This document shows, in pieces, positions 2,025 to 34,607 of a DNA stretch of 34,726 nt (position 1 is the stretch's first letter; each line of letters opens with the position of its first letter). Source of the stretch: Pseudodesulfovibrio sp. (GTDB taxonomy: Bacteria > Desulfobacterota > Desulfovibrionia > Desulfovibrionales > Desulfovibrionaceae); the NCBI RefSeq assembly GCF_028692895.1, contig NZ_JAQUWN010000008.1, positions 47,374 to 82,099 on the forward strand, in the 5' to 3' direction. Made by a program: the position numbers and the translations under genes. Under the pieces are notes generated by a model, which was not told the DNA's origin, did no database searches, and worked only from the letters and a program-made list of their open reading frames with translations.

Positions 2025-2100
<76 letters not shown>

Positions 2101-2117
2101 CCATATTTTCTTAAGAA

Positions 2118-2439: not shown

Positions 2440-3462
2440 CTAGTCAAGGTCCGGCAGGTGTTCGATGGCCTTGTCCGTGTCTCCCGGGATGAGGTGACAG
2501 TAAACATTCATTGTCATATTACTGCTAGCATGCCCGGCGAGGGTAGATACACTTTTCACCGGCACACCATTGGACAGTAATTGTGAGCAAAACCAATGCC
2601 TTATGTCGTACAGCACCACCGACTTGTCGATCTTGAGTTTCTCGCAAGTGCGGCGGAAGCTGCGATGGACACTCTTTACGGGCTTCCCGTTGTATTCGAC
2701 GAGGTAGCCGGACTTGCTATCCTTCATGCGGTTTTTGAGTTTCTTCAGAAACGCAGGCTTCAGCGGAATAGTGCGCCATTTTCCGGTCTTCCCACCGAAT
2801 ACCCGGAGTGTACCTTGATCCCACTGGATGTGGTCGTACTTCAAGGCCAACAATTCTCCAGCTCCAGGACGAACTCCAGTATTGCACAGCAATTCAATAG
2901 CAAACGCCAGATGATCCGGGGCCGCGTCTTTCAGGTTCTGGATAGTTTCCAAATCCAGCAGAAGCTCCTTCTGGGGCGCAGTCTTCTTCTTGAAGAAGCG
3001 CAACGGGTTCTCCTTCAAGTATCCACGTTCTATGCCGAAGTTGAAGATGGCCTTCAAATACGCCAAGTAGCTAGCGTGAGTGGTCGGACCAGCTTCAGGA
3101 AACTTTGCCATGACTAAAGACACAATGAACTCCTGAGTCAAGTTCTCAATCGGAACCTGGCCCAGTTCATCCAAGAGGTGCTTGTTGAGCATCTTCTTCC
3201 AATCCTGTTTCCATTTCTTCTGACCATTCAGCGAGTCAGCCTGAAAGTAGATCACAGCCAATTCATCGAAATACTTCACTTCCAGCGGAATTGTGCCGAA
3301 AGCTGGATTCTTCGCACGTTTCTTCTTTTCTAAAACGGCGGTGTTGAATACCTCGGCAGCTTTCAGTGCAGCCTCGCCTTTACCAAAGGTCCGGTTCTTC
3401 TGCTTTCCGTTTTCGCGGTAGCGAACGATTACGGAGCCATTACTACGAGTGTGTATACTCAT
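2440..3462 (-). CDS. tyrosine integrase of element A
   Basis: This 340-residue site-specific recombinase should catalyse integration and excision of element A at tRNA-Ala. It has an N-terminal arm-binding region (1-~60), a SAM-like core-binding domain (~60-165) and a catalytic domain (~170-330). Visible catalytic residues are R198 (NTGVRPG), K225, R288 in YDIRH, H311 (LAGHAS) and the nucleophile Y321 (MNVYCH). The usual first His of the HxxR motif is Tyr (Y285), a variation also present in the element B integrase. The start is fixed by AGGAGG six bases upstream. The gene is read toward the tRNA and lies 10 bases after an excisionase-like gene, so the two are probably one transcript. It is homologous to the integrase at 29930-30958, which fits their shared att core. 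Confidence 0.93.
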   Translation of the reverse strand: MSIHTRSNGSVIVRYRENGKQKNRTFGKGEAALKAAEVFNTAVLEKKKRAKNPAFGTIPLEVKYFDELAVIYFQADSLNGQKKWKQDWKKMLNKHLLDELGQVPIENLTQEFIVSLVMAKFPEAGPTTHASYLAYLKAIFNFGIERGYLKENPLRFFKKKTAPQKELLLDLETIQNLKDAAPDHLAFAIELLCNTGVRPGAGELLALKYDHIQWDQGTLRVFGGKTGKWRTIPLKPAFLKKLKNRMKDSKSGYLVEYNGKPVKSVHRSFRRTCEKLKIDKSVVLYDIRHWFCSQLLSNGVPVKSVSTLAGHASSNMTMNVYCHLIPGDTDKAIEHLPDLD

Positions 3463-3472
3463 ATTCTCCTCC

Positions 3473-3715
3473 TTACATGGGAATGGTTTTGGTTTTTCTC
3501 TTCTTCGGTTTCACCGGCAGTGGAGCATCCAGAAATGCTTCTGGATCGACCATGAACAGGTCCAAATCCGACTGTGCGAAACGGTTCTTTCCAGGGCCGC
3601 GTCTGGGTATCTGGTGCTTACGAGCCAGCAACCGAAATCGGTCGTAGCTGTAGTCCAAATATGTTGCCGCAGACTGTGCTGTGTGGTATGGTCCAGTAGG
3701 TGTAGATTTTGTCAT
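3473..3715 (-). CDS. excisionase-like helix-turn-helix protein (element A)
   Basis: This is an 80-residue basic protein with a MerR/excisionase-type winged-helix pattern: AATYLDYSYDRF, then LLARKHQIPRRGPGKNRF, then SDLDLFM. The same spaced pattern (YNSARSFSNLI, then PKYGPNRNRF, then SDLDDFM) is found in the protein before the element B integrase, so they are homologues. Such proteins direct recombination toward excision or regulate the integrase. I chose the ATG at 3715; a GTG at 3733 would add six residues, and neither has a strong ribosome site. The gene ends in a PKKRKTK-rich tail and is followed 10 bases later by the integrase. Confidence 0.75.
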   Translation of the reverse strand: MTKSTPTGPYHTAQSAATYLDYSYDRFRLLARKHQIPRRGPGKNRFAQSDLDLFMVDPEAFLDAPLPVKPKKRKTKTIPM

Positions 3716-3733
3716 TCTGTGCTTGTAACACAC

Positions 3734-4002: not shown

Positions 4003-4037
4003 GAAAGGAAGATACCCATAAAGAGCATCTTCCTTTC
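4003..4037 (-). terminator. terminator of the 45-residue peptide gene
   Basis: GAAAGGAAGAT (4003-4013) pairs perfectly with ATCTTCCTTTC (4027-4037). Read on the reverse strand it is followed by a T-rich run (CTTTTTGTCTTTTG) and lies 13 bases after the stop codon of the peptide gene. Confidence 0.75.
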
Positions 4038-4050
4038 CTAAAACACTCCT

Positions 4051-4188: not shown

Positions 4189-4200
4189 TGTCACCTCCTT

Positions 4201-4219
4201 CAGTGAAAGAGTTTCACTG
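4201..4219. promoter_or_regulatory. operator-like perfect inverted repeat
   Basis: CAGTGAAA and TTTCACTG form a perfect 8-base inverted repeat around GAG, directly upstream of the ribosome site of the 45-residue peptide gene. On the reverse strand a GATAGAGATATAT tract that could serve as -10 lies immediately upstream, so a bound dimer would block transcription. It could also act as an RNA hairpin. Confidence 0.6.
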
Positions 4220-4932: not shown

Positions 4933-6798
4933 TTAGTTGTTCGGTGGTGTCTTCTTAAACGTAAGAAAACGACCATACTTGCGGCTTTCTGAAAATTCAG
5001 TAAGCCAACCATTTATTTCCAGGACAGGAACGTATTTCTTCAACACCTGTGAAAACAACTGAGGTGTCGAAGGGATGTAATCAGCATTTCGATCCAGGGC
5101 CAGAGCGTGTTGGGCGAAGCCTTCCAAGCACTCGCTCACTTTGCCATGCACTTCATAACGTCCCTGTTTCTCGATGGCTTCAAAAAAGTCCACCAGGGCC
5201 AAGATGAATTTGTCCCCGGCTATGGAACTCTTGTAGCCACGCTCTTGGGCACGATGGTATGCGGTTTGGAACTTCACTGCATCCCAACCATTACCATAAC
5301 GTTCGCCGATTTCATCAGCAATCGCCGATCCCCATAAGGCGAAGTCTGCCATACGGGGTGGGTGTAACACCTTGGTCGTTGGCAGTCGCTTCATTGCTCC
5401 ACGCAGTACGTCCAGCATACCGCCAAGGATGCGAGGTTTTGCTGCTTCAAACTCGCGCCACACATCGCTTTCGAATTTACGATTCCCTTTAGGAATACGC
5501 GTTAATTCAATACTTATCGTGCGGTCCATGAGGTCTTGAGCCTGATACGGGAGATTAATCCCGGTCATCAGGATGGCTCTCTTGAAACGATAAACGAGCA
5601 TGTTGTCGTTGGTGTATAACTGTCTCTTTTTGAAGCCACCACCCGTACTGCCCATGCAGAGCATGTTTTCAACGGCGGCGTTGATCTTGGTCAAGTTATC
5701 AAAGAACGGCATCGCTGATTGATTCAGCATCAATGCCACCTCATCCTCCTTGCCACGCAGGTATACGCCGCCTTCAATTGCAGGGTCCACAAGACCTTTA
5801 AGCATGTTCGCCATAGTGGTCTTGGCTGAACCTTGTGTCCCGCTGATGCACGGGATGGGACGGGCGATCGAAGTGATGAATGATGCGATTACCCAGCAAA
5901 CAACAAGGATTTTGTCGTACACATCCTGAATGTTCAGGAACGGCAGAAGTTCGAGCACATTGCCGTTCGAATCCGGGATAGGTAAAGCAGACATATTAGG
6001 ATAACGAACGAATTTGTGATCCACCTCAGGGGTAACTTTCCATCCGTTCTGATCTGCTACTACATACATCCCGTCATCACGAACTAAATCCAGGGTCAAC
6101 TGCTTGCCATCATAAACCATGCGGTTATGAAGCTCATGGGTCTTTCCAGATACACGGGCCAAGCTTTCAGCAAAGTAGACCGCCTCGTTAATCTCTTTTC
6201 TTTCCGGCACAACGTTATGGTTGCTGTACACATGATGTAGCAAATGGTCCTTGAATTCACGGGAGCTAATAGAGAAATTTAATTTGATGTGATTCTGCAT
6301 TACAGTTGCAGTTGGTTCTCCCGTGCCGGACATGTATTTCTCAATTTTATCAATATAATCAGATAAAATTGTTTGAGGATTCCCCTTCGCTTTATTGTCT
6401 TCATCGGCGGCTTTGCCTCCATTGACAAGGAAGGGATTCTCGTTCGTTTCGACCTGTGCTGGCTCCGGCGGCGGTGAAGTCACTGCTGGAACTGGATCAG
6501 GTTGAACTGGATCAGTTGGAGGCGTTGCTGAAGTTTCTTCAGTCGTTTCTCCAGTTGTTAAATCCGGTTCGTTGTCTTTCGCAAACTTAGCGAAAGGGTT
6601 CGTGTCCTCATCTTCTGACTTGGACATCACTCTGATAAGATCAGGGTGCGTAGTTTCCGTAATTGGAATTGGCGGCACTTTTGACGGCTCAGCAAACGGA
6701 TTGTCCACGTTTTTAACTGTTGAACTACGGGGTTTGCTCAGGTCCGTATAAGGTTTATTCGGCGGCACCTTGGGTGCCTTTGGGTCTTTATCGTGCAT
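4933..6798 (-). CDS. helicase-type P-loop ATPase, probable replication protein of element A
   Basis: This 621-residue protein has a disordered Pro/Thr/Glu-rich N-terminus (1-~150) containing repeated NPFA motifs. A helper domain (~150-300) follows, then an ATPase domain with Walker A GTQGSAKT (320-327, K326) and Walker B-like MPFFDNL (D367). The segments that follow (RAILMTGIN, DLMDRTISIEL) resemble the sensor region of D5/DUF927-type helicases found in phage and island replication modules. The start is set by GGAGG six bases upstream. It probably unwinds the element origin, which may lie in the hairpin-rich region just upstream (6799-7300). No primase domain is recognisable. The NPFA repeats could be docking sites for a host replication protein; that is speculation. 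Confidence 0.72.
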   Translation of the reverse strand: MHDKDPKAPKVPPNKPYTDLSKPRSSTVKNVDNPFAEPSKVPPIPITETTHPDLIRVMSKSEDEDTNPFAKFAKDNEPDLTTGETTEETSATPPTDPVQPDPVPAVTSPPPEPAQVETNENPFLVNGGKAADEDNKAKGNPQTILSDYIDKIEKYMSGTGEPTATVMQNHIKLNFSISSREFKDHLLHHVYSNHNVVPERKEINEAVYFAESLARVSGKTHELHNRMVYDGKQLTLDLVRDDGMYVVADQNGWKVTPEVDHKFVRYPNMSALPIPDSNGNVLELLPFLNIQDVYDKILVVCWVIASFITSIARPIPCISGTQGSAKTTMANMLKGLVDPAIEGGVYLRGKEDEVALMLNQSAMPFFDNLTKINAAVENMLCMGSTGGGFKKRQLYTNDNMLVYRFKRAILMTGINLPYQAQDLMDRTISIELTRIPKGNRKFESDVWREFEAAKPRILGGMLDVLRGAMKRLPTTKVLHPPRMADFALWGSAIADEIGERYGNGWDAVKFQTAYHRAQERGYKSSIAGDKFILALVDFFEAIEKQGRYEVHGKVSECLEGFAQHALALDRNADYIPSTPQLFSQVLKKYVPVLEINGWLTEFSESRKYGRFLTFKKTPPNN

Positions 6799-7473: not shown

Positions 7474-8433
7474 ATGTGTTTGAGGAAGCCGCTTCTTGCA
7501 ACTCGCAAGAAGGCAATTTATCGGACTGTAAAGTTTAATAAAAAGGAACTTTGCAGTCATTCTTTAGACATCGGTTTGATTTGCGATCATGGATGTCTAT
7601 ATTGTTCCACCCCCACCATCGCATCCGCTCGGACCAATCCCGTTTTTAAAGAAAACGGAACCACTGCTCAGAAGGCGCACAACGCGCAGCTTGCTTGTAT
7701 AGACCTTGGAACGCCGGAACGTGTTGCTGCTGACGCAAAGCAGTTGACCGAATCCGATGTCGTGATGATGTGTACCAAGGTTGACCCGTTTAGCCCTGCT
7801 GTGCAGCAGACTAACCTGTTCCGTGATTGTCTGTATGGGCTGCTGACCAACAACCCTCATTGTCAGGTCAGGGTCCTTTCAAAGAACGCAGGTATTGTTG
7901 ATGTACTCAAGGACTTCACCGAGTACGCTGACCGTATCCACTTCTCGCTGAGTCTCACGGCTCCGACCAGTCAGCAGGACTTCATTGACATCGTTGAACC
8001 CAACACCTCCAGTATCGCAGATCGTATTGATGCGCTTAAGGAGGCTCATGGTTTGGGATTCAGGATGTATGGCATGGTCTGTCCCTGCATTCCCGGTATC
8101 TTGACCGGATATCATCAAGTCGAGTCTGTTTTTAAGGAAGTCCTCCAGCTCGCTCCTGAAACGATTTGGGTCGAGCCTGTAAACAGCCGTGGACAGGGAT
8201 TCAACAACATGGTCGCTGCACTGGTTGAAGCCGGTAAGCACGAATGGGCCAGCTCCATTAAGGCGATCAAGAATAAGGACTCCCATGATGAGTATGTCGC
8301 TGACCTCATCAACACCGTGGCTCTGGTGAGCAAGAATCTGGCTTTGGACATTCCGATCCGCTTCCTTTCGTACAATCGTAAGGATGCTATCGGTGCAAAG
8401 CTGATTGACGATTCACACGTAATCTGGCTGTAG
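7474..8433 (+). CDS. radical SAM protein, SPL-like
   Basis: This 319-residue protein has the radical SAM cluster motif C37-x3-C41-x2-C44 (CDHGCLYC). The motif binds a 4Fe-4S cluster that cleaves S-adenosylmethionine to start radical chemistry. Later segments (VVMMCTKVDPFSP, RVLSKNAG, RIHFSLSLT, PCIPGILTG, IWVEPVN) follow the strand order of the TIM-barrel core and resemble the spore photoproduct lyase-like subgroup often found on phages and islands. The substrate is unknown; DNA repair and RNA or protein modification are all possible. The start is fixed by TTAGGAGG seven bases before the ATG. It is the only plus-strand gene in element A, so it is a separate transcription unit. Confidence 0.85.
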   Translation: MCLRKPLLATRKKAIYRTVKFNKKELCSHSLDIGLICDHGCLYCSTPTIASARTNPVFKENGTTAQKAHNAQLACIDLGTPERVAADAKQLTESDVVMMCTKVDPFSPAVQQTNLFRDCLYGLLTNNPHCQVRVLSKNAGIVDVLKDFTEYADRIHFSLSLTAPTSQQDFIDIVEPNTSSIADRIDALKEAHGLGFRMYGMVCPCIPGILTGYHQVESVFKEVLQLAPETIWVEPVNSRGQGFNNMVAALVEAGKHEWASSIKAIKNKDSHDEYVADLINTVALVSKNLALDIPIRFLSYNRKDAIGAKLIDDSHVIWL

Positions 8434-8612
8434 TAAAATGAATTGGGAGCACGAATAGGCTCCAGAACCATTAAGATTCGCTAGTTTAGGCGGGGTTGTT
8501 CGGTCCATGGCCAAGCAATCCCGTCATTTTTATTTCTCTGGATTGACAATCAGCAGGCGGGGATATTGGGCAGTGAAACGTACATTCCAAATTAACTCGG
8601 CAAAAATAGAAC

Positions 8613-8644
8613 AGGAGCCACAGTAGGTCAGTACTGCGGCTCCT
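8613..8644 (-). terminator. terminator of the 134-residue protein gene
   Basis: AGGAGCC (8613-8619) pairs with GGCTCCT (8638-8644), with an inner ACAGTA/TACTG stem. On the reverse strand GTTCTATTTTTG follows. It lies 7 bases after the stop codon and may also stop transcription from the radical SAM gene. Confidence 0.8.
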
Positions 8645-8650
8645 ATTTCG

Positions 8651-9055
8651 TTAAGCTTCACCGTCCGATTCAGGTGCTTCCTCTTCATCGTCCGGGCCAG
8701 CGGCAGTGACGGGCGAAAGGATGATCCTGTTGTCCTCATCCACTTCGATGGTGAACTCGCTGTTGATCTGGAAGTCTCCTTCAATGGCTTCCAGTTTCTT
8801 GAGAGTGATCTTGATGCCATGCTTGGTGACACGAACTCTACTGTTGCTTCGTTCATACAGGCCGGGAAGAGTTCTCAGTTGATTGTCCTCTACAGACAAC
8901 CGCATTAAATGCGTCCTGAGACTCTGAAGCGATGCCAGTCCCAGCTTCTTCTTCGCTGTCTGGGCATCAGCTCCTTCTTCGCACAATTGACGGAGCAAAG
9001 GAGCATCGTATTTGCTCTCGACTATTCGCTTTTTGGATTCATTCTTCTTTGCCAT
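8651..9055 (-). CDS. 134-residue protein, basic N-terminus and acidic tail, putative DNA-binding
   Basis: I do not recognise the family. The N-terminus is basic (MAKKNESKKRIVESK). Residues ~18-55 look like a helix-turn-helix (LLRQLCEEGADAQTAKKKLG, then SLQSLRTHLMRL). Residues ~65-110 look like beta strands (RVRVTKHGIKITL, FTIEVDEDNRIIL), and the tail is strongly acidic (DDEEEAPESDGEA). A small regulator is plausible. The ribosome site (TAGGAGG) supports the start. An ATATAGATATCC tract upstream (about 9083-9094) resembles the probable -10 elements before the other small minus-strand genes of this element. Confidence 0.7.
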   Translation of the reverse strand: MAKKNESKKRIVESKYDAPLLRQLCEEGADAQTAKKKLGLASLQSLRTHLMRLSVEDNQLRTLPGLYERSNSRVRVTKHGIKITLKKLEAIEGDFQINSEFTIEVDEDNRIILSPVTAAGPDDEEEAPESDGEA

Positions 9056-9422
9056 TTTTCCTCCTATTAGTTGTTTTTATTGGATATCTATATGTCCACT
9101 TTGAAACAGACATAGGTGGAACCAGTGCTTACAGTGACTTGCTCTGGATGCGCGATATTTGCGCTTCTCCTGCCCGTTTTTGGGATTGGGGCAGTTCCCG
9201 TCAGGATTTTGGTTTGGATGTGTTCCTGGGGGTGTTTTGCGCGAATTTTGGGTGGAGGCGGTGGATCTGGATGGGCAGAAAAATATGACGGGGGAGAGCA
9301 GGGGCTGTTGGACTTCGGTTGACCGAAATTTTGATCTATCAAGTTGTTTTGTAATGCGATAACGGCGTGTTTTGTGTCTCTGATGAAGTACGTCTGCCGC
9401 TCCAAAAAATAGTAGAGACAGA
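9056..9422. other. intergenic region without supported gene
   Basis: Overlapping frames exist on both strands, including a Pro-rich 132-codon frame on the reverse strand. None has a ribosome site and all conflict with the terminator at 9423-9444. The left end contains the promoter of the 134-residue protein gene. Confidence 0.5.
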
Positions 9423-9444
9423 AGGCGGGATATTTCACCCGCCT
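9423..9444 (-). terminator. terminator of the 84-residue protein gene
   Basis: AGGCGGG (9423-9429) pairs with CCCGCCT (9438-9444). The reverse strand continues with TCTGTCTCTACTATTTTTT. It lies just past the stop codon of the gene at 9450-9704. Confidence 0.75.
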
Positions 9445-9449
9445 GTTAT

Positions 9450-9704
9450 CTAGACTAGAATGTCTCGGATTTTGTTCGGTTGGCAAAGACTTACTGAGTT
9501 CAACAAGTCTTCAGGTTTGAGTCCGCAAAATGCAATGTCATTGCCATCAGCATCCTTGATGGAAACTGTGGCAAGATAAGCACCGTCTTCTTCATTTTTT
9601 TCTAAACCGAAATGTATTGAACCATTTCCAGCGTTCAAATCGGTTGTATCATAAAAGTATACGATATCCTCAAACACTACCTTTGCAACAATTGATGCCT
9701 TCAT
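9450..9704 (-). CDS. 84-residue hypothetical protein
   Basis: I do not recognise the family. It is acidic and looks largely beta-stranded: ASIVAKVVFEDIVYFY, SIHFGLEK, AYLATVSIKDADGND, with a short helical C-terminus. There is no signal peptide or membrane segment. A clear ribosome site (AAGGAGTATCTT) precedes the ATG, and its promoter block (9725-9757) is nearly the same as that of the next gene upstream, so the two are probably co-regulated. Its own terminator follows. Confidence 0.7.
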   Translation of the reverse strand: MKASIVAKVVFEDIVYFYDTTDLNAGNGSIHFGLEKNEEDGAYLATVSIKDADGNDIAFCGLKPEDLLNSVSLCQPNKIRDILV

Positions 9705-9724
9705 AAGATACTCCTTTTATGAGG

Positions 9725-9757
9725 ATATATCTATGCGAGTGGTTCCATAATGAAATT
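9725..9757 (-). promoter_or_regulatory. promoter block shared by two small genes (copy 1)
   Basis: On the reverse strand AATTTCAT is followed by GCATAGATATAT at the same spacing as at 10047-10079. TTTCAT and AGATAT are 17 bases apart, a normal -35/-10 spacing. It lies about 20 bases upstream of the ATG at 9704. Confidence 0.6.
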
Positions 9758-9820
9758 GGCAGGAGAAAAGAACAAGCACTCTGTTTTAGTGGAGTTGCCG
9801 TTCAAAAATAACAAAAGAAC

Positions 9821-9854
9821 TCCTCCTGAAACTTAATAGCATCAAGAGGAGTCT
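9821..9854 (-). terminator. terminator of the zinc-ribbon protein gene
   Basis: ACTCCTC (9821-9827) pairs with GAGGAGT (9848-9854). On the reverse strand TCTTTTGTTATTTTTG follows, just after the stop codon at 9863. Confidence 0.65.
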
Positions 9855-9862
9855 CGCCAGAA

Positions 9863-10027
9863 CTACATGAACAGTTTGGCTACTATCCAGAAAAGCAAGA
9901 TAACCCCACCAATTTTGATAAGGTGCATAATAGCTGCTCCGGCTGTCAGTTTAGCTCCACAGTTGAAACATGTAGTTGCTTTCAACAGGTTCTCATGACC
10001 GCATTTGTGGCATATCCTGGTTTTCAT
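9863..10027 (-). CDS. 54-residue zinc-ribbon membrane protein
   Basis: The product starts MKTRICHKCGHENLLK and carries two CxxC pairs (CHKC and CFNC), a typical zinc ribbon. One C-terminal membrane helix follows (IKIGGVILLFWIVAKLF). It is probably a small membrane-anchored protein with a cytoplasmic zinc finger; function is unknown. I start it at 10027, where AAGGAG precedes the ATG at the right distance, rather than at the in-frame codon at 10060. It sits directly downstream of the flagellin gene but has its own promoter block, shared with the gene at 9450-9704. Confidence 0.75.
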   Translation of the reverse strand: MKTRICHKCGHENLLKATTCFNCGAKLTAGAAIMHLIKIGGVILLFWIVAKLFM

Positions 10028-10046
10028 AGAATACTCCTTTCTTGGA

Positions 10047-10079
10047 ATATATCTATGCAAATCAGTTCATTATGAAATT
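10047..10079 (-). promoter_or_regulatory. promoter block shared by two small genes (copy 2)
   Basis: AATTTCAT then GCATAGATATAT on the reverse strand, at the same spacing as copy 1 (9725-9757). It overlaps the end of the flagellin gene, so the zinc-ribbon gene can be expressed independently of flagellin. Confidence 0.6.
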
Positions 10080-13000
10080 AGCCACCAATAAGCTGCATTG
10101 CCATACGGGGTAAGCTGTTCGCCTGGGCCAGCATAGCTACTGCGGCTTGAGTAAGTATCTGGTTTCGGACGAACTCGGTCATTTCATTCGCAACATCTAT
10201 ATCAGTAATCCGTGAGACCATCGCTACTGTGTTTTCTTTTTCAATCTCAATAAAGGCATCATGGCTTTCGAGAGTGTTACCATCTGCTCCTAGGCTGCCC
10301 TGGACATTTGTTACATCAATGAGTGCTGCATTGATTACTTGGAACGAGGAGGATGCGCCTTCTTGTGTACGGTAGTTCATCTGAGAAAGAGATGTCCATG
10401 GTTCAAGCGAGAGGGTCGGGTTGTTTTCGTCTACTTGGTAGGTGTTGGGCGAATCAATAAGCCAGACATCAAATCCTGAATTGCCTGCACCACTGCCAGA
10501 ATAGTTCGAGATAATAAGAGGTTGATCTCCATTAGAGCGAAGATATATGCCTGTTTCATCGGATGTCCTTTCGAAGATTACATCTTGTGCTGCAAGGGCC
10601 GCTGTATGATCGTTTAACTCCTGCAATAATAAATTGGAATTCTCCGTTTGAGTGGCTCCAGCAGTATACGACAAGCTTACTCCGTTGAGATCAAAAGATA
10701 TTGTTTCTCCTGCTGTGTTGGAAAAATTGTCGATTCTGCCTTTTGAAATCTGATCCGATGATGACCATGTTAATTCAGCTCCCCTGTTTGCTGCTGCATT
10801 AAATGCTCCAGCTTCACCGCTTGTAGCGGTTCCATCTACATTAGAAGAAATGCTGAAGGAAATATTGGGGTCCAGAATGAATTCGCCTGTACCATTAATC
10901 ATAGCCCATTGCGCGTTAGGGTCGGCTCCAGCATGTTGCGAGTCGATGGTACCGGCAAGGGTGCTGTTTGCTGGCCCTAAACCAACTTGTCTAAGTCCTG
11001 CATTGATTCGATCAATGGTTATGTGATCCTGCTCTCCTACATTTCCAACATCATCTTCACGCATGTTGAAGCTGGTCGTAACATGGGTTCCTAATGCTGC
11101 GTTATCCAGATATGACCCAGACTCAACTCCATAGCTTGTTGCAGTTGCTCTGCTATTAGTTATGGTTGTGCTTGTTCCAATATCTTGCCCTGGGTTCTTG
11201 AAAATGACACTGGCTCCAGTATTGGAAGAGCCAGCTCCTGCTGCTGCATTCAGGGAAGTAGTTTGATCTGTGATCGTTCTATTGGTGCTTGCATTGACAG
11301 TGCCGCCCCCAGTTGATCCCGCACCGGCTCCAGCCAAAACGGAACTTGAGATGTCATTAACGGTGATTGAGCCACCAGCAGAACTTAGCGATTGGGCAAC
11401 TCCAGAGCCGCCACCTGCTGTGGAGCCTCCATCAGGAGTGATGGTTGAGATAACAGTGCTTTCGCTTACTGTAATACTTCCGCCCCCTTCATTTAGTGCG
11501 GCAGGAGTGCCTGCTCCCGCTCCAGCATCCGCATTGTTGGCTGGAGTGATGAATGTGGCAATATTCGCAGCGTTGGTGCCGGATAGGTTTGAAATTCTGA
11601 ATTGAACCTGATCGGTTGTTGTTATGGTGACGTCGTTGCCGGACAATCCAAATGTAGTGTTGGGGACTCCCGCCAGAGTGAGTGCATTGAGCATATTTGT
11701 GGCGGTATCGTTATCTGTTGCTCCTGCCAAAAAGCTAACAGGGAAATTCGAACCAGACCTTGTGTAGGTGAAGGATACTGTTTCTCCTGGAACGATGTTG
11801 GCAAAAGTGCCTATGCTGGCTTCAATTACTGAACTTAATGCGAGGGAAGACATTTCAAAGCTGACATTATCTGTGGCACTTACCTGGACATCATTACCTG
11901 CGGTACCGAATGATGTGTTAGGTATACCCGCGCCGTTTAAGGCGTTGCGGAGGTTTAACGCAGTAGCTGCATCTGATGCACCCACGGCAAATGAAACAGG
12001 ATAATTGGTTCCTGATCTTGTATACGTCAGGGATAAGGTGTCTCCGGGAAGAGTATTGGAAAAGGGTCCAATCGTAGCATTGTTTAGACCGTCATCTTGG
12101 AAGTTTGTGACAGCTATACTTGTATTGTCAGCCTTGGTTACCTGGACCGTTTCACCGGATCGAGCTACTGTGTATCCTCCTCCGAGAGCGCCTAATGCGG
12201 TTTCCAAATTTTGTGCGGTAGCTGCGCGGGTAGCACCTACAACATAGGAAATGGCTGTGCCATCAAGTTCGAATTGTAGAGTTGCACCTTCATCTAGAGA
12301 ATAGTTGGAAAATTGGACATTGTTGTCTTCATCGTCATATTGAATGTCAATATAATCTTCACTTCCAGTCCGGGCGATTACCGCAGTTGTTCCATTTACA
12401 TCGGCGGTTATTCCGGGAATCCCTGCGGCGTTGACAGCTGTTACCAAACGGGAAGCGTTTGCAGCTTGGGATGCACTGCCTGCTGCGGTAAAAGAGACAT
12501 CAGTTCCTTCTATGTTAAGTGTGATTTCTTCGCCTGAATAATTGGTGAAGTTGCTGACATTAACTCTAGTCTGATTGTTCTCAAGATCGGTTACATTGAG
12601 TAAATTCCCAGCAGGAGTGGATGCTTCAGTACTCGTGAGGTTGATTTTAGTGATGGTAACTGTGTTGTTAGTACCATTTTGATCTACGGTATAATAATGT
12701 TCTCTGGTGTGTGGTGATGCATAGGTTAAGTCGGCTGCGTATTGTGGGGCGTTATAGAATACACCAGCATTTGTTAATGCGGTGGTCGCTGCGGCAGCAG
12801 CTCTTGCCATGTTTGTGGCATCGCTAGTGGAGTATTCAAACGTGACTGGGATGCCGTCAATATCAAACGATATTTCACTGGCAGGAATATTGGTTCCACC
12901 GGGAATGGCAGAAGGTGTATCCCCAAAATTACCAAGCTCAACAGCCGGGTTGTCAATAAGTTCAAAATCGCCGATTGCGAGTGATTTACCTACTTCCGAA

Positions 13001-14001
13001 CGAAGCACAGTTCCGGTTCGGCTCAAGTCCAAGTCAGAGTTAGCCGTGTTTACCTCATCAACGATTCTATCAAGGGTGGCAAACAGGTTTGCTTCGGTTT
13101 CTGCTTCATCTCTTCCGATGAGAAAAGAATGCGAGTAATTGGGGTCTCCAGTACCACCTGAATTGAAGGTGAATCGCACCATGTCCCCGTATGATCCGTT
13201 AAGTTCAGCCTTCGTAAAACCAATGAAATCTGCATAGCTTACTGCGGATGTCTCTCTAATTCCGTCCATTTCAAGGTTTTCGATTTCAGCCAGTAATCCA
13301 TTGATATTATTGTTTCCTTTGGCTGCGCTGATTTCTATTGTACGCACGTCGGCGGCACTTGAAATTGTAATGGTCTGGTCTGCCATTGATTGAGTGGAGG
13401 TGTCTGCTAAAGCTGCACCGACTTGAGGAAGATTTAACTCCACACCATCAACTATGCCGGTCTGGTATGATTTCTGACCAGTAGGGGTGAAAGTCCCCAA
13501 CGTCGTGGCAGTCGTCTTCGGTAAATCAATAAAAATGTTTTCTTCATTTTCTTCGCCAGATTGGATTTCGATTACACTGTCGTCCTTGAATAAATCAATT
13601 CCATTGAATTCCAGATCTTTTTGAGCACGTTCTATTTCCGATGTTAATTGCTGCATTTCATTGGAAATGATTTCTCTTTGGTCTGCGTTGTATGTGCCGG
13701 TTGAGGCTTGAGCAGCCAATTCCTTCAATCGGATAATCATAGCGTTGACAGCGAGTAGTCCTCCATCCGCAACCTGCACTAGCGATACTGCATCTTTTAT
13801 GTTTCTGGATGCTTGTGCGAGGCTTGATGCTTTAGCTTTTCCTAATTCAGAAATTGCTAAACCAGCTGCGTCATCTGCGGCTGTGCCGACTCTCAACCCC
13901 GATGATAGACGCCTCGTAGAAACTCCTAGAGCACCATAATGTGTTCCGAGATTTCGGGCGGTATTCATTGCCATTAGGTTGTGATTAATCGTCAAAGCCA
14001 T
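10078..14001 (-). CDS. giant flagellin (1307 residues) with repeat-filled central domain
   Basis: The protein has the conserved flagellin N-terminal D0/D1 region at residues 1-~145 (MALTINHNLMAMNTARN, RRLSSGLRVGTAADDAAGLAIS, DQREIISNEM). It also has the C-terminal D1/D0 region at ~1200-1307 (SRITDIDVANEMTEFVRNQI, AMLAQANSLP, MQLIGG). These polymerize into the filament through the flagellar export system. Usual flagellins have about 280-550 residues; here ~1050 residues separate the ends. This insert contains at least six repeats of ~85 residues related to hook-IN motifs, with patterns such as GETVSFTYTRSGSNFPVSF and NALTLAGVPNTTFG. A Gly/Ser/Ala-rich low-complexity part lies around residues 840-960. 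No chaperone gene is nearby, so host flagellar machinery would be needed. A sigma-54 promoter candidate and a leader hairpin lie upstream. Flagellin identity is certain; surface variation or phage-receptor change as purpose is inference. Confidence 0.95.
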   Translation of the reverse strand: MALTINHNLMAMNTARNLGTHYGALGVSTRRLSSGLRVGTAADDAAGLAISELGKAKASSLAQASRNIKDAVSLVQVADGGLLAVNAMIIRLKELAAQASTGTYNADQREIISNEMQQLTSEIERAQKDLEFNGIDLFKDDSVIEIQSGEENEENIFIDLPKTTATTLGTFTPTGQKSYQTGIVDGVELNLPQVGAALADTSTQSMADQTITISSAADVRTIEISAAKGNNNINGLLAEIENLEMDGIRETSAVSYADFIGFTKAELNGSYGDMVRFTFNSGGTGDPNYSHSFLIGRDEAETEANLFATLDRIVDEVNTANSDLDLSRTGTVLRSEVGKSLAIGDFELIDNPAVELGNFGDTPSAIPGGTNIPASEISFDIDGIPVTFEYSTSDATNMARAAAAATTALTNAGVFYNAPQYAADLTYASPHTREHYYTVDQNGTNNTVTITKINLTSTEASTPAGNLLNVTDLENNQTRVNVSNFTNYSGEEITLNIEGTDVSFTAAGSASQAANASRLVTAVNAAGIPGITADVNGTTAVIARTGSEDYIDIQYDDEDNNVQFSNYSLDEGATLQFELDGTAISYVVGATRAATAQNLETALGALGGGYTVARSGETVQVTKADNTSIAVTNFQDDGLNNATIGPFSNTLPGDTLSLTYTRSGTNYPVSFAVGASDAATALNLRNALNGAGIPNTSFGTAGNDVQVSATDNVSFEMSSLALSSVIEASIGTFANIVPGETVSFTYTRSGSNFPVSFLAGATDNDTATNMLNALTLAGVPNTTFGLSGNDVTITTTDQVQFRISNLSGTNAANIATFITPANNADAGAGAGTPAALNEGGGSITVSESTVISTITPDGGSTAGGGSGVAQSLSSAGGSITVNDISSSVLAGAGAGSTGGGTVNASTNRTITDQTTSLNAAAGAGSSNTGASVIFKNPGQDIGTSTTITNSRATATSYGVESGSYLDNAALGTHVTTSFNMREDDVGNVGEQDHITIDRINAGLRQVGLGPANSTLAGTIDSQHAGADPNAQWAMINGTGEFILDPNISFSISSNVDGTATSGEAGAFNAAANRGAELTWSSSDQISKGRIDNFSNTAGETISFDLNGVSLSYTAGATQTENSNLLLQELNDHTAALAAQDVIFERTSDETGIYLRSNGDQPLIISNYSGSGAGNSGFDVWLIDSPNTYQVDENNPTLSLEPWTSLSQMNYRTQEGASSSFQVINAALIDVTNVQGSLGADGNTLESHDAFIEIEKENTVAMVSRITDIDVANEMTEFVRNQILTQAAVAMLAQANSLPRMAMQLIGG

Positions 14002-14033
14002 CCGTGCGAAACTCCACTTGAGCAGGAATAATT

Positions 14034-14050
14034 TTCCGGATTGCCCGGAA
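14034..14050 (-). other. stem-loop in flagellin mRNA leader
   Basis: TTCCGG (14034-14039) and CCGGAA (14045-14050) form a perfect inverted repeat around ATTGC, about 35 bases before the flagellin ATG. It may act on the mRNA leader as an RNA hairpin or as a protein site. Confidence 0.45.
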
Positions 14051-14107
14051 TCTGTTGCAAAAAGTGCTTTAATTTGAGGGGATAGTTCTAAAACACGGGT
14101 TTAAAGA

Positions 14108-14123
14108 TGCATATGCCATGCCA
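14108..14123 (-). promoter_or_regulatory. candidate sigma-54 promoter of the flagellin gene
   Basis: The reverse strand reads TGGCATGGCATATGCA, which fits the -24/-12 pattern TGGCACG-N4-TTGCA with two mismatches. The GG and GC doublets are exactly 10 bases apart. It lies ~108 bases before the flagellin start. Many bacteria express flagellar genes from sigma-54 promoters. No convincing sigma-28 site was seen. Confidence 0.6.
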
Positions 14124-14168
14124 GCATATTGGTTGCTGCATATTTTAGCTCAGAACTGCACCAAAATC

Positions 14169-14234
14169 TGGTCAACCAAATTGGTCAACCGGGGCCTTTA
14201 ACACGCCTCCAACATCACTGATTTTCTGTTGACC
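14169..14234. repeat. TGGTCAACC repeats near right end of element A
   Basis: TGGTCAACC occurs at 14169-14177 and 14182-14190 in direct orientation, spaced 13 bases. An inverted partial copy (GTTGACC, 14229-14235) is followed, like the second copy, by GGGG. Being ~50-110 bases from the att core, they may be integrase or excisionase arm sites. I do not see them at the left end. Confidence 0.4.
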
Positions 14235-14279
14235 GGGGAAAAATAAATTCAATAATTCTGGAGCTTGGAGACGAGTCTC

Positions 14280-14329
14280 CTTGAATGGCATTCAAGAGGT
14301 CGTGGGTTCAATTCCCTCCAGCTCCACCA
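14280..14329 (+). repeat. att core copy 2 (junction of elements A and B)
   Basis: An exact copy of the 50-base 3' part of tRNA-Ala lies between the elements. The 5' half of the tRNA is absent, so it is not a working tRNA gene. It is attR of element A and attL of element B. Confidence 0.95.
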
Positions 14330-14338
14330 ATGATTATA

Positions 14339-14650: not shown

Positions 14651-15787
14651 ATGGTTCAATGCGATAATGCAGCTTGTTTGCAAGATTCACTAAATATAAC
14701 TGATAAATGGCAGTCAATCGTATCAGAAATTAAGGAAGAATATCTTAGTACAAAGCAGCCATACCCGTGGATATTGGGATTTTCTGGAGGCAAGGATAGC
14801 ACCTTATTAGTTCATGCTGTTTTTGAGGCCTTGTTAGACATACCCCCTTTCAAAAGGAACCGTCCAGTTCACATTGTCTCAAATGACACACTCGTTGAGA
14901 GCCCTTTGGTTATTGAACATTTGAATAATACTACGAAATTGATTGACGAAGCTGTTCAGTCTCTTGGCTTGCCTATTTTAGTTGCCAGGACCACCCCTGC
15001 GAAAGATAAGACATTTTGGGTTTTGTTGATTGGGAAAGGTTATCCTAGTCCGAACCAAACAATGCGTTGGTGTACGGATAGGTTAAAAGTTCAGCCTACA
15101 AGTACATATATACGAAATCATGTTTCCGAGGCTGGTGCAGCAATTGTTCTGCTCGGTGTCCGAAAGGATGAAAGTCAGTCCCGCTTGCGTTCAATTGAGA
15201 AACACAAAAATTTGCGTGGAGAGCGGTTAGCGCCTCACGAAACTCTAAAAGGTGCGTATATTTATCGCCCAATTGTTGAGTTGACTACATGTGATGTTTG
15301 GGAGTTGTTGTTGATGAATGATGCCCCATGGGGCGGAAATCATAGCGCGCTGGTTAAGCTTTATAAGGATTCAGAGGGCGGTGAATGCCCAGTTATGTTG
15401 AGCTCTGAAGAGGCTCCAGCATGCGGTAGCAGATTCGGGTGTTGGACCTGCACCGTTGTTGAAAAAGATAAAAGTATGCAAGGGTTTGTTGACTCAGGAT
15501 TGCAGGAGTATCAACCACTGATTGAATTTCGGGATTGGCTAAAAATGATTCGGAACAAGCCAGAGATGAGGCAGGCTTTGCGAAGGAATGGCAAGTTGAC
15601 CTTCGGAGCTTCTGGGAACCATGTCCCTGGCCCTTTTACAATTGCCGCCCGTAGACAAATACTAAATCGTCTATTAGAGGTTCAAGATCTGTTTGGGCAG
15701 CCTCTAATTTCTGATGATGAGATTGAACTTATTCATCAGCACTGGGCAAAGGAACTTCAAGAAGAAAAGGGTATTGCAAATGGATGA
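14651..15787 (+). CDS. dndC: DndC, phosphorothioation sulfurtransferase (PAPS-reductase-like)
   Basis: The 378-residue protein has the N-type ATP pyrophosphatase loop SGGKDS at 45-50, as in PAPS reductases. It also has cysteines suited to a 4Fe-4S cluster: C141 in MRWCTDR, then C258-x5-C264-x2-C267 in ACGSRFGCWTC. Known DndC proteins are iron-sulfur ATP pyrophosphatases that, with DndD and DndE, replace a nonbridging oxygen of the DNA backbone by sulfur. Sulfur reaches them from a cysteine desulfurase (DndA or a host IscS). No desulfurase gene is nearby, so a chromosomal one must be used. The start lacks a strong ribosome site. The stop overlaps the next small gene, and the next three genes continue the operon. 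Confidence 0.93.
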   Translation: MVQCDNAACLQDSLNITDKWQSIVSEIKEEYLSTKQPYPWILGFSGGKDSTLLVHAVFEALLDIPPFKRNRPVHIVSNDTLVESPLVIEHLNNTTKLIDEAVQSLGLPILVARTTPAKDKTFWVLLIGKGYPSPNQTMRWCTDRLKVQPTSTYIRNHVSEAGAAIVLLGVRKDESQSRLRSIEKHKNLRGERLAPHETLKGAYIYRPIVELTTCDVWELLLMNDAPWGGNHSALVKLYKDSEGGECPVMLSSEEAPACGSRFGCWTCTVVEKDKSMQGFVDSGLQEYQPLIEFRDWLKMIRNKPEMRQALRRNGKLTFGASGNHVPGPFTIAARRQILNRLLEVQDLFGQPLISDDEIELIHQHWAKELQEEKGIANG

Positions 15788-15980
15788 CGGTTACCTCAGT
15801 GATTTACCTTTGTGGGCTGACGATGAAGCTCGTAAGGTCTTTGAGCGAGTGTGTGATGAGCAAAACATTCCTATTGATGTCATTACTGAACTTGTCATGC
15901 TCCAGCGCGAACGTCAGCATCAAGAAAGAGCTGCAGGTATATATCCTCGATTCGAAGAGATTCTTGGCAGAATTGATTAA
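15780..15980 (+). CDS. small protein of the dnd operon (66 residues)
   Basis: It begins MDDGYLSDLPLWADDEARKV and is predicted helical and acidic, with VITELVMLQRERQHQERAAG as a likely helix. Its ATG overlaps the end of dndC by 8 bases, behind AAAGGG, and dndD starts 20 bases later, so translation is coupled. Small proteins of this size between dndC and dndD are known as DNA modification system-associated small proteins; their role is unclear, perhaps assembly of the DndC-DndD complex. A longer frame starting at 15714 lies inside dndC and was rejected as start. Confidence 0.8.
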   Translation: MDDGYLSDLPLWADDEARKVFERVCDEQNIPIDVITELVMLQRERQHQERAAGIYPRFEEILGRID

Positions 15981-16000
15981 CTCGCCAACTTGAGGTTGCT

Positions 16001-18073
16001 ATGTGGATATCAAGAATAGAGTTGACGAATTTCAAGTCCTATCAGCATCAAAATTTTGGGTTTCCCAAGCCTGATTTGGGTAAAAATGTCGTCCTCATTG
16101 GTGGAATGAATGGATATGGAAAGACGACCCTTTTGGAAGCATTGTATCTTTGCCTTTACGGTAAGGATGCAATGACGCATTTAGCTAGGGCTGGTCTTAA
16201 AATTGATGATGCAAAAGGATATCCTACGTTTTTGGAGCGCGCCTTTAATGGTGAAGCCAGGCGAGAAGGTCGCGATACGATGCTTGTGCGGGTTGTCATT
16301 AATAAAACTCAAAGTAAAGCTATAGACATTACGAGAAAATGGTATTTCCGATCGAATGGCACTTGGGCGGCTGAAGAAGAAGCCATTGTACGAGAAGTCA
16401 AGAAGGATATTCCGGGCACCCCACGAGTAGATGGACGGAATAATTTCCATCTAGCTGACATGTTGGACGACTTCCTTGTGCCAGCGCATATCGCTCCATT
16501 TTTCTTTTTTGACGGAGAAGAGGTAAAAAAACTCGCAGACCAAGGCCGAGTTGAACAGGTCAAGCAGGGCTTGGAAGGTTTACTTGGCGTGGTTTTATTA
16601 AGGACTCTTGCTCAACGGTTGCATAATTTTGAAATCCAAAAAAGACTGGGTGTTAACAACGTCGATGAGAACAAGATTTTGCAGCTGAGTGAAAGTTTAC
16701 AGAATAATGAAACTCAGTTGCAAGAGCTTCGTGACAAGGAAAAAGCTGTCAACAATCGCATCGAAACTCTTAAAGCCCAAAGGGAAACTCTTTTTGAACG
16801 CATCACTTCTGCTGGTGGTGCCTGTAGTGATGTCGCTACCGTAAAAGATTTGGTTGAAGAGAGGGAGCAACTGCGGGGAGAGTTAAGAAGCAAGCAAAAG
16901 GAATTAGAAGAAGCACTTGTGGGGAAGTTACCTTTTCATTTAGTTTCAAAGGACCTCCTTGGTAGTTTCAAGTCTCAACTTGAAGCCGAAACGCGATATT
17001 TTTCTTGGGAAGCTGACAAACGGTCATTAGAACCGAGACGAAATGAATTTGAGAGTGCTTTTCATGAGCAGAGTGATCCTGAGATTGATCCGGCGTTAAC
17101 AAATGAGCAATTGAGGGCTATTGAGTGTCGAATTGAAGCTGCTTGGGCTAGTTTGTTTTACCCACCCCCAGATGATTGTGCTTCTGAAGTAGTACATAGC
17201 TATTTACATGAAACACAAAGAGACGAAGCCTTGTCATTCCTGAATTCCATGTCACTTGGTCAACAGGAAATTCAAGAAAATCTTAATGTGCAACACTCAT
17301 TGTCTCAACGTATTTCCGAATTAGGCCGGAAGATTTCGAAGTTAGAAGGAATTGACCGGGATGGAACCTTAACAACCTTGAAAGAGGAATTGCAGGGTGT
17401 TCAATCTGAGTTGGATCAACTGGTGGACGATTCGCGCGTAGACGATAGGCGATTACATGCGCTGATTAGCCAAGTAAAGGCGCAACGCGCAGAGTATGAA
17501 CGAGAAAAGAAAAAGCTGGATGACTCAAGCCCCATCCGCGCTTTGCTAGAGAAGTCTGAAAGAGTTCGGGTGACAATTGATAAGTTGATCCCAGCTCTCT
17601 TTCCATTAAAAGTCAAAAAATTAGCGAAAGCGATGACAGACGTGTACAGGCAGTTAGCTCATAAGAATCAGGTTGCTAAAATTGAGATTGGCAATGATGG
17701 GAGCACAACGATCTTAGGCAAGTCTGGAAAGAAGATTTCTTTCGACAGGTCCGCTGGTGAAAATCAGATATTTGCAACGGCGTTGATCGCAGGGCTTGCA
17801 GAGGTCTCTGGAGTTAAGGCTCCTATGGTTGTTGATACCCCACTGGGTAGGTTGGACAGTATGCATAGGAGCAATATTCTCGATTTTTGGACTAAAGATA
17901 AGGAGCGTCAGGTGCTGCTCCTTTCACAAGATGAGGAGATTGACCAGGACTTTTACAAACAGATAAAGGACAATGTCAGTAAGACATATCTGTTGGAACA
18001 TATAGATGTCGGCGATGGTATCGGGCGTACAACGGCAATAGAAGACGCATATTTTAATGGGAGCCATCAATGA
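16001..18073 (+). CDS. dndD: DndD, SMC/Rad50-like ATPase of DNA phosphorothioation
   Basis: This 690-residue protein has Walker A GGMNGYGKTT at 34-43 and the family-typical FFFFDGEEVKKLADQG near 167-182. A long coiled-coil middle (~210-560; QLSESLQNNETQLQEL, LVEEREQLRGELRSKQKEL) follows. The C-terminal head has the ABC signature SAGENQ (~583) and Walker B MVVDTPLGRLD (~609). The plan is that of Rad50/RecF-type ATPases. DndD is required for phosphorothioation and may nick or open DNA for sulfur insertion. Its ribosome site is GAGG six bases upstream. Its TGA overlaps the ATG of the DndE-fusion gene (ATGA), so they are translationally coupled. Confidence 0.94.
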   Translation: MWISRIELTNFKSYQHQNFGFPKPDLGKNVVLIGGMNGYGKTTLLEALYLCLYGKDAMTHLARAGLKIDDAKGYPTFLERAFNGEARREGRDTMLVRVVINKTQSKAIDITRKWYFRSNGTWAAEEEAIVREVKKDIPGTPRVDGRNNFHLADMLDDFLVPAHIAPFFFFDGEEVKKLADQGRVEQVKQGLEGLLGVVLLRTLAQRLHNFEIQKRLGVNNVDENKILQLSESLQNNETQLQELRDKEKAVNNRIETLKAQRETLFERITSAGGACSDVATVKDLVEEREQLRGELRSKQKELEEALVGKLPFHLVSKDLLGSFKSQLEAETRYFSWEADKRSLEPRRNEFESAFHEQSDPEIDPALTNEQLRAIECRIEAAWASLFYPPPDDCASEVVHSYLHETQRDEALSFLNSMSLGQQEIQENLNVQHSLSQRISELGRKISKLEGIDRDGTLTTLKEELQGVQSELDQLVDDSRVDDRRLHALISQVKAQRAEYEREKKKLDDSSPIRALLEKSERVRVTIDKLIPALFPLKVKKLAKAMTDVYRQLAHKNQVAKIEIGNDGSTTILGKSGKKISFDRSAGENQIFATALIAGLAEVSGVKAPMVVDTPLGRLDSMHRSNILDFWTKDKERQVLLLSQDEEIDQDFYKQIKDNVSKTYLLEHIDVGDGIGRTTAIEDAYFNGSHQ

Positions 18074-20369: not shown

Positions 20370-20393
20370 GCGAGGGGAGAGCGGGAATGTGTC

Positions 20394-34547: not shown

Positions 34548-34597
34548 CTTGAATGGCATTCAAGAGGTCGTGGGTTCAATTCCCTCCAGCTCCACCA
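34548..34597 (+). repeat. att core copy 3 (attR of element B)
   Basis: An exact third copy of the 50-base tRNA-Ala 3' sequence. It marks the right end of the tandem array; no 5' tRNA half precedes it, so it is not a working tRNA. Confidence 0.95.
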
Positions 34598-34607
34598 CTA
34601 GAAAGTT

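Follow-up and report, generated by a model that had tools for sequence, protein, structure and literature searches.

P4-like phage satellites and similar integrative elements combine an integrase, an excisionase-like gene, a replication gene, a regulator, and an exchangeable cargo slot. For a prophage, a flagellin has been described that remodels flagella and is accompanied by a dedicated repressor; the sections of that report drawn on here call it the first known example and describe effects on motility, immune responses, and gut colonisation (PMC13418256). According to a survey of 113,285 flagellins, the exposed domains of these proteins move between species by horizontal transfer; in the parts considered here, the source of the regions studied is described as unknown, and a new flagellin is held to be unable to replace the resident one from a distance (PMC7018530). 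Here we consider a giant flagellin encoded in a 34,726-nucleotide stretch of a Pseudodesulfovibrio sp. contig (NZ_JAQUWN010000008.1; this whole stretch is called the window), within an integrative element that we refer to as element A. Comparison with related loci strongly supports the flagellin as exchangeable cargo of element A, and we consider it likely that it is cargo of a tRNA-targeting Desulfovibrionales element family and that it re-coats the host filament via co-assembly. The recurring pattern across this family is more interesting than the single gene.

The gene is located as follows:
10078..14001, minus strand: giant flagellin, 1307 amino acids, start codon on the 14001 side (open reading frame call, Pfam, and protein search)

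A sequence-only reading had proposed a 1307-residue flagellin with intact polymerization ends at one end of a mobile element. The reading frame proved to be real and to lie on the minus strand, and the ends are indeed intact: Pfam recovers both helical regions typical of bacterial flagellin, Flagellin_N at residues 5-140 (E 7.6e-29) and Flagellin_C at residues 1221-1305 (E 2.2e-17). With more than 1000 residues the protein is a giant flagellin by size. No peptidase domain was found by Pfam in this protein or in the ten sister flagellins scanned. Of 7992 candidates scored in a protein search, 33 proteins were reported, the query among them. Five match the giant flagellin across its centre (P0002 at 76%, P0003 at 74%, and P0005 at about 50% identity), P0004 and P0006 being related over half of the query only; for these five, the longest contigs span 3.7-7.9 kb. 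A search of 348 genomes of the order (E ≤ 0.001) recovered the central region from its own genome only, and among the matches listed from 395 genomes of the phylum none but its own covers the centre, indicating that the giant type is rare. The GC content at third codon positions (GC3) is 0.39, compared with 0.93 for one host flagellin, which suggests a foreign origin. One host flagellin groups with named Pseudodesulfovibrio records in a tree of joined flagellin ends, and the host is therefore described as Pseudodesulfovibrio-like.

The flagellin lies in a series of features that define element A. Homologues of the replication protein and of REG, our name for a 134-residue marker protein, were sought in the order (348 genomes, 59 genera, E ≤ 0.001).
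2025..2100, plus strand: intact tRNA-Ala(GGC), the integration target (ARAGORN)
2051..2101, plus strand: attachment repeat 1, 51 bp, tRNA 3' end, left border of element A (direct repeat family; matching ends in sister element L170)
2440..3462, minus strand: tyrosine integrase of element A (PF00589, 1.6e-22; phrog_1, 2.1e-54)
3473..3733, minus strand: excisionase-like small protein, 86 amino acids (homologues at the same spot in locus L130 and before the integrase of element B; function assigned from position)
4933..6798, minus strand: replication helicase/primase-like protein, 621 amino acids (homologues in 30 of 348 genomes)
7474..8433, plus strand: radical S-adenosylmethionine (radical-SAM) protein of a phage-associated family (PF04055, 9.4e-7; phrog_13321, 9.1e-18; homologues in L019, L170, and L180)
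8651..9055, minus strand: REG, 134 amino acids, element marker and probable regulator (homologues in 50 of 348 genomes; 93% DNA identity with L170 around REG)
9450..9704, minus strand: 84-residue protein, the last gene common to the window and L170 (alignment with L170)
9855..14157, no strand: cargo slot with the ZnTM gene, the flagellin, and its promoter (BLASTN borders against L170)
9863..10060, minus strand: ZnTM, a 65-residue zinc-ribbon and transmembrane protein directly downstream of the flagellin (a partner with 56% identity follows the flagellin in L133/L244)
14280..14330, plus strand: attachment repeat 2, right border of element A and left border of element B (direct repeats; 97.1% identity between 14158-14330 and the L170 right end)
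34548..34598, plus strand: attachment repeat 3, right border of element B (direct repeats; in relatives the downstream sequence leads to another integrase)

Copies of the last 50 bases of tRNA-Ala plus one further base, 98-100% identical, begin at 2051, 14280, and 34548. These three 51-bp repeats indicate that the window is a tandem array of the tRNA gene, element A (2051-14330, 12.3 kb), and element B (14330-34598). Element A has an integrase and direct repeats at the 3' end of a tRNA gene, as an integrative element should, and the flagellin sits at the end opposite the integrase, in agreement with the location first proposed. The same reading had stated that no other flagellar gene accompanies it, and none was found in element A by Pfam (four other open reading frames and the 84-residue protein) or PHROGs (six other proteins), not every small open reading frame having been scanned. 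Neither the 621-residue replication protein nor the REG homologue matches Pfam, and the replication protein has no DNA match in L170; one homologue of it weakly matches a phage primase. The intervals beside the flagellin (9450-10060 and 14001-14330) hold no open reading frame of the size of TldR, a gene of the Enterobacter prophage to which we return below.

Element A could also be read as a degenerate prophage with the flagellin being a piece of host chromosome captured at its edge, a reading favoured by viral contig L098, where a flagellin lies beyond a prophage integrase. We regard this as very improbable here. Phage structural genes are absent from the element A proteins scanned (five by Pfam and seven by PHROGs, flagellin included; small open reading frames not all scanned), and the position of the flagellin inside both attachment ends, its foreign codon use, and its movement with the element in relatives already disfavour an origin by edge capture.

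L170, a sister element found in a different genus of the same bacterial family, is inserted at the same tRNA and was compared with the window. BLASTN aligns the window with L170 at 3502-4244 (91.7%), at 7169-9854 (93.1%), a block spanning the radical-SAM gene, REG, and the 84-residue gene, and at the right end, 14158-14330 (97.1%). The interval separating the last two blocks measures 4.3 kb in the window and encodes ZnTM and the flagellin. In L170 it measures 7.7 kb and contains a DUF6573-like gene together with genes for a TmtA-like protein (PADLOC, 6e-301) and a Toll/interleukin-1 receptor (TIR) protein (ThsB-like, 4.7e-38), a DUF6035 protein that is weakly CoiA-like being encoded between these two. 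L170 is a mosaic relative, but the comparison establishes the ends of element A and an exchangeable slot between them, and it shows the flagellin to be exchangeable. A second pair behaves similarly: L175 and L171 share backbone stretches at 77-87%, and L175 is without a segment comprising a helix-turn-helix (HTH) gene and a flagellin. The proposal of flagellin as mobile-element cargo is strongly supported by the attachment ends, by the slot swap in L170, and by the association with REG sites described below.

The contents of the L170 slot raise the possibility that the flagellin is a defence gene in a defence slot, one that would cover or replace the normal filament surface, stop flagellum-binding phages from adsorbing, and so protect both host and element. 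The sequence-only reading had mentioned flagellum-dependent phage infection, and the candidate anti-phage genes in the same slot make this idea reasonable, no more. Near sister flagellins, five of seven hand-picked proteins have a PADLOC match, which reflects proximity only; they include a reverse transcriptase in L027 (6.1e-130), a methylase in L133 (3.3e-80), and a GmrSD/HEC-05-like protein in L132, two proteins have no match, and the match in L134 is weak. Against such masking, we know of no flagellum-binding phages of these hosts, and the sugar-binding folds on sister flagellins described below suggest binding, not shielding. For the prophage FR-phi, the authors, in the portions of the report considered here, judged phage resistance unlikely to be the primary reason, having found no flagellum-binding phage with which to test it (PMC13418256). 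We rate receptor masking as unlikely.

REG provides a means of following the element family. It occurs in 20 of the 59 genera of the order, and the 12 of 395 phylum genomes with matches are its own, four others of its own family, and seven from other families with weak matches (1e-10 or worse). A cut at about 95 bits defined 88 strong matches, of which 85 entered a distance census. Eighty REG neighbourhoods were fetched and, with the window, gave 81 loci that were scanned with profiles of the shared genes; L130 and L132 were scanned separately, one REG site lies inside L173, and four strong sites were left out of the scan. A flagellin is present in 15 of the 81 loci, and the remaining 66 have none within about 10 kb, some of these neighbourhoods being truncated at a contig end. 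Eleven of the 15 flagellins have both ends in one open frame, that of L234 is cut at the locus edge, and those of L187, L215, and L216 are incomplete. L132 and L014, with a flagellin about 10-11 kb from REG, are additional to the 15. Absence of the gene from related elements had been named as grounds for doubting the cargo proposal, and the outcome is mixed: the closest sister, L170, and the 66 loci lack a flagellin, whereas 15 carry one, an association far above chance. Such mixed presence fits an exchangeable cargo, not a fixed gene.

A gene order recurs in the flagellin-bearing loci, consisting of DUF6573, a small open reading frame, a divergent HTH gene, the flagellin, and sometimes ZnTM. 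The HTH gene is found in 11 of 15 flagellin loci versus 6 of 66 others, and ZnTM in 6 of 15 versus 1 of 66. DUF6573 (10 of 15 versus 32 of 66) is no flagellin marker. The ZnTM family follows the flagellin in L173 (from 9206), L180 (from 3909), L187 (from 15275), and L235 (from 9160) and occurs without a flagellin in L198; ZnTM may be a functional partner of flagellin. When 80 flagellin loci of named genomes were scanned with the same profiles, marker genes appeared in L014, L019, and L027 only, all with large flagellins; the profiles were partly built from these three, which makes the result circular for them, not for ordinary loci. L019 belongs to the cultured Solidesulfovibrio aerotolerans DSM 16695 and L027 to the cultured Fundidesulfovibrio agrisoli SG106, both with an intact element flagellin and neither known to us as a pathogen. 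A protein of about 300 residues that recurs in these elements (L132, 12245-13132) resembles a phage queuine tRNA-ribosyltransferase (phrog_887, 3.1e-25) and is possibly a DNA-base modification enzyme.

The distance census, which is free of the circularity of the profiles, covered the flagellins of the 32 genomes with a strong REG site, excluding G000 (the window's own genome) and G262, and their distances to the 85 sites; 16 genomes with weak REG matches only lay outside it. It comprises 127 flagellins among the matches listed, down to E 2.3e-34, with weaker partial and hook-protein rows dropped, and all counts that follow are among these. An open frame of at least 450 residues is found in 28, and 99 are shorter. 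A strong REG site is found no more than 20 kb from 17 of the 28 long frames, as opposed to two of the 99 shorter ones, both incomplete element copies; the other 97 are not near (Fisher p=5.6e-12, a guide only, because kinship among the copies makes them non-independent). At distances up to 10 kb from REG there are 12 flagellins, where a rough density estimate predicts about 1.6. The REG-near flagellins come from at least 14 genomes, or 15 with the window's own, of 6 genera and 2 families. When viral contigs were searched with the replication protein and with REG, no confirmed locus was obtained; the outcome for REG neither proves nor disproves packaging by a helper phage.

One pair of these loci documents recent movement. 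L171 (genus g35) and L172 (genus g51) have 14.6 kb in common at 98.8% identity, with a 688-residue flagellin inside; the common stretch stops within tRNA-Glu, the 3' part of which is kept, and the outer flanks do not align. For this one pair, the computed alignment shows that a related flagellin element was recently transferred between genera. Their flagellins differ by 1 synonymous and 3 nonsynonymous changes, too few for selection on this pair to be judged.

The element flagellins also form a lineage. In a tree of joined ends with 122 rows, the window protein and P0002-P0006 make up one clade (100/100), which lies inside a clade (100/88) with the large Desulfovibrionales flagellins L014, L019, L027, L099, and L102. 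Of these, L019, L027, and L099 are within 10 kb of REG, L014 is about 10 kb away, and L102 is in another island (L134) that carries no marker genes in its 20 kb. This last observation suggests that flagellins of this kind may occur in islands of other types too; the L134 stretch at 4521-12179 holds a 509-residue flagellin of the element lineage, LamG-like by eye, beside a set of genes that is weakly JetC-like. A second tree, with 108 rows, requires one change to separate 13 element flagellins from 84 others, compared with a mean of 12.4 changes in 500 shuffles, none as low as one. The branch has a Shimodaira–Hasegawa-like approximate likelihood ratio test (SH-aLRT) support of 85, short of the starred level, and the tree carries no root. 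Left out of it were the distant proteins P0012-P0033, loci L079 and L096-L098, duplicate rows, and L215 and L216, which are incomplete; P0002-P0011 and L134 were displayed unlabelled. At the flagellin ends, four between-element pairs have nonsynonymous divergence (dN) of 0.11-0.40 and synonymous divergence (dS) of at least 1.29 or saturated. With dN far below dS, the polymerization ends are under purifying selection.

These results bear on whether the flagellin is simply a passenger, captured by chance, decaying, and of little or no use to element or host. The incomplete copies in three loci would be expected of a passenger, as would the many loci with no flagellin around REG, although contig ends truncate some of those loci and a few flagellins lie slightly further away. 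Decay is difficult to reconcile with the intact 1307-residue frame, the full-length relatives at 74-76% identity, the constraint on the ends in all four pairs, and the recurrence of the lineage near REG across genera. We consider a mere passenger quite improbable.

In contrast to the ends, the exposed centres vary. The predicted model of the giant flagellin has about seven beta-beta-alpha-beta-beta repeats in its centre, with a mean predicted local distance difference test score (pLDDT) of 58, and its best matches in the PDB are D2/D3 of Pseudomonas aeruginosa FliC (2.4e-5) and then Helicobacter pylori FliD (4.6e-4). The sequence-only reading had described about 1000 residues of hook-IN-like repeats; the predicted fold supports this description and the sequence does not, as Pfam Flagellin_IN (PF07196) is not listed for the protein at E ≤ 10 (the program's filters drop most weak matches). 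Among the ten sister flagellins scanned by Pfam, a LamG lectin-type domain was detected in L019 (3.7e-26) and L235 (1.1e-12) and, below cut-off, in L133. The other seven have no middle domain above the Pfam cut-off except a CopC-like match in L027, the marginal score of which we take as chance. Segments of about 55 residues recur in L171, L027, L132, and L014. For L027, the predicted model places a propeller of seven blades between helical ends (mean pLDDT 60.6, two sequences), and its PDB matches include flagellins as well as sialidase-like and lectin propellers, among them a sugar-binding lectin and glycosidases. Between L180 and L235, identity is 84% at one protein end and 80% at the other, and their middles give no in-register alignment. 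Computation thus shows several unrelated flagellin middles on a common D0/D1 chassis.

The lectin-like and propeller domains, together with the repeat arrays, could make the flagellum an adhesin for particles, biofilm matrix, or cells, and such adhesive display may aid spread of the element. The LamG domains and the predicted propeller, with its lectin and glycosidase matches, point in this direction, but the repeats of the giant flagellin itself resemble plain flagellin D2/D3 and FliD modules, not lectins. As the general explanation, adhesion is possible, if somewhat unlikely.

Expression of the flagellin under host flagellar control is suggested by a site upstream of the gene:
14108..14123, minus strand: sigma-54-type promoter-like site TGGCATGGCATATGCA, beginning 122 bp before the flagellin start codon

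The site TGGCATGGCATATGCA agrees with 10 of 12 consensus positions, which 1.65% of 2000 shuffles equalled. A site of this type is found in 13 of 15 element-lineage flagellins (shuffle mean 1.3, maximum 5) and, among the 84 other flagellins, which are mostly chromosomal, in 55 (shuffle mean 7.2, maximum 15). The 15 rows include L134, where REG was not found, and the incomplete L215 and L216; L172 was omitted as a near copy of L171. Sigma-28 promoters were considered and set aside, the strict pattern being present in 7 of the 84 other-flagellin upstream regions, so that sigma-54 fits more of them; in the lineage, L180 and L235 score 11 of 12 for sigma-28. In some elements the sigma-54 pattern overlaps, by eye, a palindromic stretch that could be an operator.

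On the reading that we favour, re-coating by an exchangeable flagellin, sigma-54 flagellar control of the host would switch the element flagellin on, and the host flagellar apparatus would export it. Its D0/D1 regions would copolymerise with chromosomal flagellins, and the roughly 1000 residues of D2/D3-like repeats would coat the filament, wholly or partly. The element, in which no further flagellar gene was found, would alter the surface of an existing organelle, and the host, hence the element, would profit. That profit may lie in adhesion, in escape from phages that bind flagella, or in altered mechanics, among which we make no choice. More broadly, and with a confidence a little short of even, we propose that Desulfovibrionales elements keep a flagellin lineage of their own, with a fixed D0/D1 chassis, swapped exposed domains, carriage between genera, and a connection into host flagellar regulation, which they use to re-coat flagella for their own benefit and which would be the missing vehicle spreading surface domains.

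Several observations weigh against this proposal. The incomplete flagellins (3 of 15 loci) suggest that the cargo is not always maintained, the HTH gene typical of flagellin loci is absent from element A, and 11 of the 28 long frames listed lie away from a strong REG site (G239:C3, C5, and C6; G320:C1; G319:C1; G310:C29; G291:C3; some as adjacent pairs). Part of the integrase region of L170 is just 67% alike to the window, and L170 has different genes where the window has the replication gene. P0002-P0006 are known only from contigs shorter than 8 kb, and the element linkage of the giant type therefore rests on the window copy. Twelve of the 13 lineage promoter-like sites lie 121-166 bp before the start codon, compared with mostly 48-67 bp in host flagellins, and their consensus is weaker than the host's; the counting pattern was fixed after the best matches had been viewed, which makes the shuffle test post hoc. 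With the pattern chosen in this way and overlapping a palindrome, the sigma-54 evidence is good, not final. Lastly, the C-terminal D1 part is divergent in the giant family, which sits on a long branch (0.88 in the 122-row tree), and co-assembly with ordinary subunits is accordingly not assured.

The remainder of the window belongs largely to element B. Its genes at 14651-19608 include DndC, a PbeC/DndD-like ATPase, and a DndE-FtsK-like protein, likely a defence module related to DNA phosphorothioation. A DUF6710 protein, a Fic protein, and a class-3 lipase cluster at 19641-23153, and a protein with a VgrG3-like C-terminal domain (PF21277, 1.6e-50) is encoded at 31961-33493. The end of the window is the end of the contig. 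In the region of repeat 3 and beyond (34548-34726), a 178-bp query meant to find the flank after the repeat has matches, frequently multiple, in each of the 36 genomes of the genus, and an integrase follows this downstream sequence in all seven relatives checked, suggesting that tRNA-Ala is probably a tandem insertion site and that the window probably ends in a third element. With this flank query, no empty integration site was established in the genomes of the genus; the downstream sequence is probably another element, not chromosome. In the GC-rich host flank at the other end of the window (1-593), two direct repeats of 293 nucleotides, 88% alike, lie 300 nucleotides apart.

How does element A compare with other mobile DNA that carries flagellins? 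Flagellin ends are matched by 186 plasmid records, 20 predicted mobilizable and 10 conjugative; among 20 of the 186 listed, all matches are below 60% identity and to the ends only, and ordinary flagellins on plasmids are thus not rare. Eleven phage records, all unannotated, also match the ends (six human faecal, 4.1-43 kb; four short fragments of 1.4-6.2 kb labelled as phage of Salmonella, Escherichia, or Listeria; and a 118-kb Bacillus record) and are given no weight. Viral contigs contain three flagellin loci (L096, L097, and L098); the first two were included in the 122-row tree and in the profile scan, and L098 is read as a flagellin lying beyond a prophage integrase. The statement of the sequence-only reading that it knew of no established case of flagellin as cargo of a satellite-type element is too strong and does not hold for mobile DNA at large, given these plasmid records and the prophage flagellin described in the parts of that report used here (PMC13418256). 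For flagellins on non-phage integrative elements of Desulfovibrionales, a literature search mostly excluding subscription papers found no report. The minor flagellins of Escherichia coli are of ordinary size and have other carriers; flnA is reportedly excised by an integrase and may be a flagellin on a non-phage integrative element.

The E. coli minor flagellin loci flkA, fllA, flmA, and flnA resemble the present case in being extra, imported flagellins outside fliC, as described in the sections of the survey used here, and differ in being enterobacterial (PMC7018530). Giant flagellins of thick filaments likewise exceed 1000 residues and have conserved ends with inserted repeat domains, but in the portions of that work considered here they are convergent across lineages, the Oceanospirillales case being vertical after domain duplication (PMC6248924), whereas the giant flagellin of the window is mobile cargo, known here from sequence. 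Flagellinolysins, in the parts of the reports drawn on, also have a functional domain inserted in the exposed region of flagellin (PMC5595980, PMC7643111), unlike the giant flagellin and the ten sister flagellins scanned, in which no peptidase domain was found. Like P4-like satellites, element A has an integrase, an excisionase-like gene, a replication gene, a probable regulator, and exchangeable cargo; it differs in carrying a flagellin.

A close known system is FR-phi of Enterobacter (FliCP and TldR), in which, according to the sections considered here, a mobile element also brings a flagellin with enlarged outer domains that acts via the host apparatus (PMC13418256). FR-phi is an infectious phage with an RNA-guided repressor of the host flagellin, whereas the open reading frames scanned in element A include no phage structural gene and its flagellin has no TldR-sized neighbour; the host order and the exposed domains differ, and the association recurs across an element family. 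Mobile-element flagellin itself is already known; what is new here is a non-prophage vehicle, its recurrence, and the swapped domains. With complete flagellins, promoter-like sites, varied exposed domains, and one recent move between genera, these elements are a candidate vehicle for the gap left in the survey, as far as its sections used here describe it (PMC7018530), and mobile DNA may spread new flagellum coats across species. If so, flagellar remodelling by mobile DNA extends beyond enterobacterial prophages, a question directly testable in cultured sulfate reducers.

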